From the NCBI RefSeq assembly GCF_000004075.3, contig NC_026661.2, positions 19,372,307-19,436,306 of the forward strand: DNA of 64,000 nucleotides, read 5' to 3'. Under the pieces are notes generated by a model. It had not been told where the DNA came from, made no database searches, and saw nothing but the letters and a program-made list of their open reading frames with translations. Positions 58,522 through 63,607 of this stretch are shown here, piece after piece. A program made the translations under genes and the position numbers. How positions within the stretch are numbered: position 1 is the stretch's first letter; every line of letters begins with the position of its first letter. The DNA is from Cucumis sativus (Eukaryota; Streptophyta; Magnoliopsida; Cucurbitales; Cucurbitaceae).

Positions 58522-62481
<3,960 letters not shown>

Positions 62482-63352: not shown

Positions 63353-63403
63353 GTCCCACATCGTTGAGTATTAAAGAAGAGACAGTTGAAGTGGGGTATA
63401 AAA
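63353..63403 (+). promoter_or_regulatory. Plant Pol II snRNA promoter: USE and TATA box
   Basis: The upstream sequence element GTCCCACATCG (63353-63363) matches the plant snRNA consensus RTCCCACATCG exactly. The TATA element TATAAAAAAAG starts at 63397. The 33 bases between them fit the spacing known for Pol II snRNA genes; Pol III snRNA genes have about one helical turn less. The RNA start is about 32 bases after the TATA. Confidence 0.93.
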
Positions 63404-63428
63404 AAAGAATCAGGGTGAACGTTGAAAC

Positions 63429-63591
63429 ACACTTACCTGGACGGGGCTTTTGGGCGATCATGAATACTCATAGCCTAGGTTGGTGACCTCCATTGCACAT
63501 ACAGGAGGGGTGCCCGCCTAAGGTCTGCCCAATGTGGCAGAGCCTACGTCATAATTTGTGGCAGTGGGGGCCTGCGTTCGCGCGGCCCCTA
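63429..63591 (+). ncRNA. U1: U1 spliceosomal snRNA
   Basis: The 5' end carries ACTTACCTGG (63431-63440), which pairs with 5' splice sites. Then come ACGGGGC, the U1-70K loop GATCATGAA (63457-63465), GCCTAGGTTGGTGACCTCCA leading to the U1A-binding loop ATTGCAC (63490-63496), CCTAAGGTCTGCCCAA, and GGCAGAGCCTACGTC before the Sm site ATAATTTGTGG (63551-63561). The final hairpin is GGGGGCCTGCGTTCGCGCGG followed by CCCCTA. Length is about 163 nt, as in known plant U1. It has a full promoter and 3' box, so it is likely active. Base 2 seems to be C where most U1 RNAs have U (AUACUUACC); the start is placed by analogy. Confidence 0.96.
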
Positions 63592-63592
63592 T

Positions 63593-63607
63593 CATTTTTC
63601 AGTTCAA
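63593..63607 (+). terminator. Plant snRNA 3' box
   Basis: CATTTTTCAGTTCAA matches the plant snRNA 3'-end signal CA(N)3-10AGTNNAA with six spacer bases. It starts two bases after the mature U1 end and directs RNA 3'-end formation. Confidence 0.9.

Follow-up and report, generated by a model that had tools for sequence, protein, structure and literature searches.

A likely functional U1 snRNA gene of canonical plant type in a 64-kb window of the cucumber genome

Introduction

Is the U1-like sequence in the 64-kb stretch of cucumber DNA analysed here (the window) a working gene of the usual plant kind, a copy that has fallen silent, or a variant with a function of its own? An earlier note on this DNA had proposed a complete plant U1 snRNA gene of the type transcribed by RNA polymerase II (Pol II), and had called it a possible U1 variant. 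The question matters mainly for annotation, where protein-centred gene sets can miss such genes. Judged from its sequence, the locus is likely a functional U1 gene and adds one more copy to a well-known class.

Gene elements and covariance-model match

The check that the earlier note had named, a score above the gathering cut-off of the Rfam U1 model RF00003 (69.5 bits), came out in its favour: the match reaches 134 bits (E 9.3e-34), and RF00003 is the sole Rfam family above its cut-off within the window (Table 1). The proposed RNA of ∼163 nt is thereby recovered as a full-length match, with one correction, a 3′ end at 63592 in the Rfam match instead of 63591, off by one. We take the loops of stem-loops I and II to be the U1-70K and U1A sites, respectively, and 63553..63560 to be the Sm site; all three motifs are in place as claimed, as is the splice-site sequence. 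The window gene has both the Sm site and the ATTGCAC of the U1A loop, and 10 of the 11 letters of the recognition sequence AUACUUACCUG, with C at position 2.

Table 1. Features of the U1 locus, in window coordinates
Feature	Sequence	Position	Strand	Remark
USE	GTCCCACATCG	63353..63363	+	exact match to RTCCCACATCG
TATA box	TATAAAAA	63397..63404	+	gap 33 from USE; 32 bases upstream of RNA start
U1 snRNA, 164 nt		63429..63592	+	RF00003, 134 bits, model 1-166
5′ splice-site recognition sequence, C at position 2	ACACTTACCTG	63429..63439	+	RNA 5′ end
Stem-loop I loop	GATCATGAAT	63456..63465	+	
Stem-loop II loop	ATTGCACATAC	63492..63502	+	
Sm site	AATTTGTG	63553..63560	+	
3′ box	CATTTTTCAGTTCAA	63593..63607	+	fits CAN3-10AGTNNAA

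The promoter elements and 3′ box also agree with what had been claimed for them, namely an exact USE, a TATA box at the Pol II spacing of 33 and a perfect 3′ box, which lies directly after the RNA and fits the published plant consensus. In their available parts, PMC9845283 gives the USE consensus RTCCCACATCG and puts the USE–TATA distance of Pol II-type snRNA genes at four helical turns, and PMC545797 gives the 3′ box consensus CAN3-10AGTNNAA and has the USE in a form with one C fewer, RTCCACATCG. The window gene has the USE, the TATA box about four helical turns off and the 3′ box of a plant Pol II snRNA gene. Its USE is the only match to RTCCCACATCG in the window with at most one mismatch allowed, and since 0.64 matches are expected by chance at that looseness, it is weak evidence by itself. 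The 3′ box pattern starts at a frequency of ∼0.0009 per base on the two strands of the window, so chance is an unlikely explanation for a box whose first base directly follows the RNA. When a second copy of the promoter region was sought, the 329 upstream bases matched nothing but themselves. Transcription by Pol III was set aside given the USE–TATA gap, the 3′ box and an internal TTTT at RNA positions 20-23; such a run is expected to stop Pol III, so its presence is in keeping with Pol II transcription of the gene.

Genome-wide, the composite pattern RTCCCACATCG-N31-35-TATA has 23 matches, compared to one for a reversed-pattern control. When coordinates were compared by eye, 19 of the 23 were assigned to snRNA families, lying within ∼105 bases upstream of matches to U1 (11), U4 (3), U2 (3, with the U2 match beginning ∼104 bases further on) and U5 (2), where the best 41 of 18522 candidates had been scored for U4, the best 46 of 15097 for U2 and the best 46 of 25012 for U5. 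The other four (C2:19370944, C3:11067866, C3:28459205 and C5:19728025), not assigned to U1, U2, U4 or U5, may be genes for other snRNAs, copies that were not scored or chance matches.

Just upstream of the U1 gene and on the same strand, two ORFs at 58522-61607 match serine carboxypeptidase (Pfam Peptidase_S10) and are probably exons of one gene. An ORF for a GNAT acetyltransferase lies ∼5.5 kb downstream (L029:5812-6474); near its C-terminus, the protein has a long stretch of histidines. ARAGORN found no tRNA in the window.

Relatives elsewhere in the genome

The U1 search covered the 226.6-Mb genome (88 contigs) and scored the best 41 of 2632 candidates; because this and the other family searches score the best candidates only, copy numbers are lower bounds. 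The genome holds at least 20 U1 matches, at least 15 of them above the RF00003 cut-off, and the window gene ranks tenth among those scored. Five matches (L024-L028) fall under the cut-off, and entries L001-L008 are the same places as L009-L016. A further U1 fragment, 76% identical over 99 bases, is found at C5:6132317.

Promoter layout is shared between the window gene and its paralogues: 14 of the 15 copies above the cut-off have a USE (11/11 letters in 11 copies, 10/11 in three), and 14 have a TATA box at a gap of 32-34, the gap in L022 being 33. We therefore count the window gene, on sequence criteria, as one of about fourteen promoter-bearing U1 copies found in the genome. A consensus-fitting 3′ box at the RNA end is rarer, occurring in three of the 15 (L009, L012 and the window gene), with loose matches downstream of L011 (by 34 bases) and of L022 (by 44 bases) left uncounted. 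Over aligned stretches, identity between the window gene and the other 14 copies ranges from 79 to 93%. One of these, L012 (C5:26568484), resembles it at 93% identity over RNA 3-162 and likewise has an exact USE and a gap of 33, with a consensus-fitting 3′ box one base after the RNA; it differs in having U at position 2 and, in stem I, U19, C20 and G44 as compared to C19, U20 and A44 in the window gene.

Six of the copies above the cut-off (L022, L023, L014, L013, L010 and L016) form a cluster of ∼115 kb at C1:24978250-25093277. Among them, L022 (5′ end TTACTT) and L023 (GTACAT) form a diverged pair in which both 5′ ends are altered. L023 (C1:24984849-24985014) carries A at position 5 of the RNA (GTACATACCTG), within the core that recognises the splice site, together with an exact USE, a TATA box at gap 32 and an altered U1A loop; the altered loop notwithstanding, its sequence makes it a stronger candidate functional variant than the window gene.

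The promoterless L021 (C5:19682859-19683018) looks like a U1 retrocopy, with an 18-base flanking duplication and an A-rich tail; it is nearest to L009 in 978 of 1000 bootstraps of a tree of 16 of the 20 U1 matches (L024, L025, L027 and L028 left out). Lacking a promoter, it nevertheless scores 120.7 bits, well above the cut-off, so that score alone is no mark of a live gene.

A decayed copy on the minus strand, L026 (C5:29448330, 38.5 bits), agrees with the window gene at 94 of 109 compared columns, a figure that is 76-86 for the remaining 14 copies; L026 and the window gene both have C19, U20, U21 and A44. L026 has no USE (best match 6 of 11), which would fit an RNA-mediated copy of a transcript of the window gene. 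Such an origin would be a weak hint of past transcription there; an old decayed duplicate fits as well. The argument is weak on several counts. The L026 branch is long (0.44); its pairing with the window gene appears in 900 of 1000 bootstraps, short of what the tree tool treats as firm, and the bootstrap had not settled. A search for a target-site duplication at L026 found no shared flanking word of at least nine bases. The AT-rich upstream flank of L026 does have TATA words, at approximately −26 and −18 and not at −32. The flanks of L026 are no more similar to those of the window gene than shuffles are (score reached by 195 of 200 upstream and 42 of 200 downstream) in a test that separates little: of the 14 paralogues above the cut-off, just three (L011, L015 and L017) score higher than every one of the 200 shuffles upstream, and downstream none does.

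Secondary structure

The RNAalifold consensus for 14 of the 20 U1 matches (alignment A1, which leaves out the promoterless L021 and, as under the cut-off, L024-L028) comprises 48 pairs, and 15 of these show one or more kept double changes. Omitting three pairs with the 5′ tail that to our knowledge do not belong to the accepted fold of U1 leaves 45 core pairs. All 45 are standard in the window gene, which thus has the four-stem fold, by a structure that was derived from the same sequences and is biased towards them. They are likewise all standard in eight of the 13 other aligned copies, and the other five break one or two pairs. Rfam's own consensus marks eight letters (four pairs) as non-standard in the window gene. 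At one stem I pair (A1 columns 20-45, RNA 20/44), the window gene and L019 have U-A; 10 other copies have C-G, one has U-G and another G-G. With every core pair standard and this stem I pair changed on both sides, the predicted fold suggests constraint.

Functional reading and alternatives

We put the probability at roughly 90% that the window gene is a member of a dispersed U1 snRNA gene family with the standard mechanism, and we infer its transcription, assembly and splicing activity from that membership. Its sequence, promoter layout, 3′ box, predicted fold and place in the family are direct observations. By the standard mechanism, the USE/TATA promoter would recruit Pol II and the 3′ end of the RNA would form at the 3′ box; the RNA would then assemble with Sm, U1-70K, U1A and U1C proteins into a U1 snRNP that would pair with 5′ splice sites. 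Covariance model, promoter, 3′ box and fold together support the complete Pol II-type plant U1 gene that had been proposed, a canonical and likely active one. A recently silenced copy, intact in sequence yet unexpressed or unassembled, is an unlikely alternative. In its favour, the window gene departs from the majority at position 2 and at RNA 37 (loop I), where it has U, as L022 and L023 do, and the other 12 copies have G; moreover, the same genome contains the five or more U1 matches under the cut-off as well as L021, promoterless and above it. Against silencing, the USE, TATA box, 3′ box, core pairs and Sm site are all intact, and the 3′ box at the RNA end places the gene with only two other copies.

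The suggestion of a U1 variant stands in part. Ten of the 15 copies above the cut-off begin with the 11 letters ATACTTACCTG, the exceptions being the window gene (C at position 2), L019 (T at 1, C at 2), L022 (T at 1), L023 (G at 1, A at 5) and L021 (C at 10). The C at position 2, which is real in the assembly, is accordingly uncommon, occurring in two of the 15, with U in 13 of the 14 other copies. The loop that had also been cited is ordinary: ATTGCACATAC recurs exactly in L010 and L013 (three of 15), and ATTGCACATA in these and also in L014 and L016 (five of 15), so the loop lies within normal variation.

Could this C nonetheless mark a specialised variant that prefers 5′ splice sites whose intron position +7 is G? 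Nucleotide 2 of U1 would face intron position +7, and the base is rare in the family, which gives the idea its footing. Position +7 contributes little, however, the recognition sequence is unchanged in its other ten letters, and L019, the other copy with C at position 2, differs at position 1 as well; we regard such specialisation of the window gene as exceedingly improbable. Scarcely more credible is the broader proposal that the position-2 C form, in the window gene and L019 together, makes a distinct U1 snRNP that shifts 5′ splice-site choice through pairing with G at intron +7. A special function of this form is unlikely because the rest of the recognition sequence is intact. Except for a single uncommon base close to the tip, the window gene is ordinary and shows no sign of special function. 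Its combination of C at position 2, C19-U20-U21 and A44 sets it apart from its paralogues and makes it distinguishable from them in RNA data; if the copies with C at position 2 are expressed and used, they would offer a simple natural test of functional differences among plant U1 isoforms.

Relation to known U1 families

Among the matches listed in our literature search, which included few subscription papers, nothing concerned a U1 with C at position 2 or cucumber U1 genes, and the available part of PMC11489095 holds nothing on U1 gene variants. Tomato U1 variants are named in the reference list of PMC10228655 (Abel et al. 1989), and the part of PMC4291461 at hand describes snRNA isoforms as differentially expressed, with an unclear role in splicing. 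In the sections available of PMC5159530 and PMC13172311, human variant U1 snRNAs (vU1) are reported to act in stem cells; cucumber resembles that system in having diverged paralogues in a multicopy U1 family.

A close comparison is with Arabidopsis, for which the available part of PMC545797 describes 14 U1 copies, 10 of them likely active and the active ones averaging 87% identity, as well as seven U1-U4 clusters. Unlike those clusters, the window gene has no neighbouring U4: no other family is above its cut-off in the window or in the adjoining 20 kb, counted from 128 bases before the RNA. It also departs from the Arabidopsis U1 family, as described there, in its C at RNA position 2. In the features of that family given in the same source, the two otherwise agree, both being multicopy and diverged, with USE, TATA box and consensus 3′ box and with a similar copy number.
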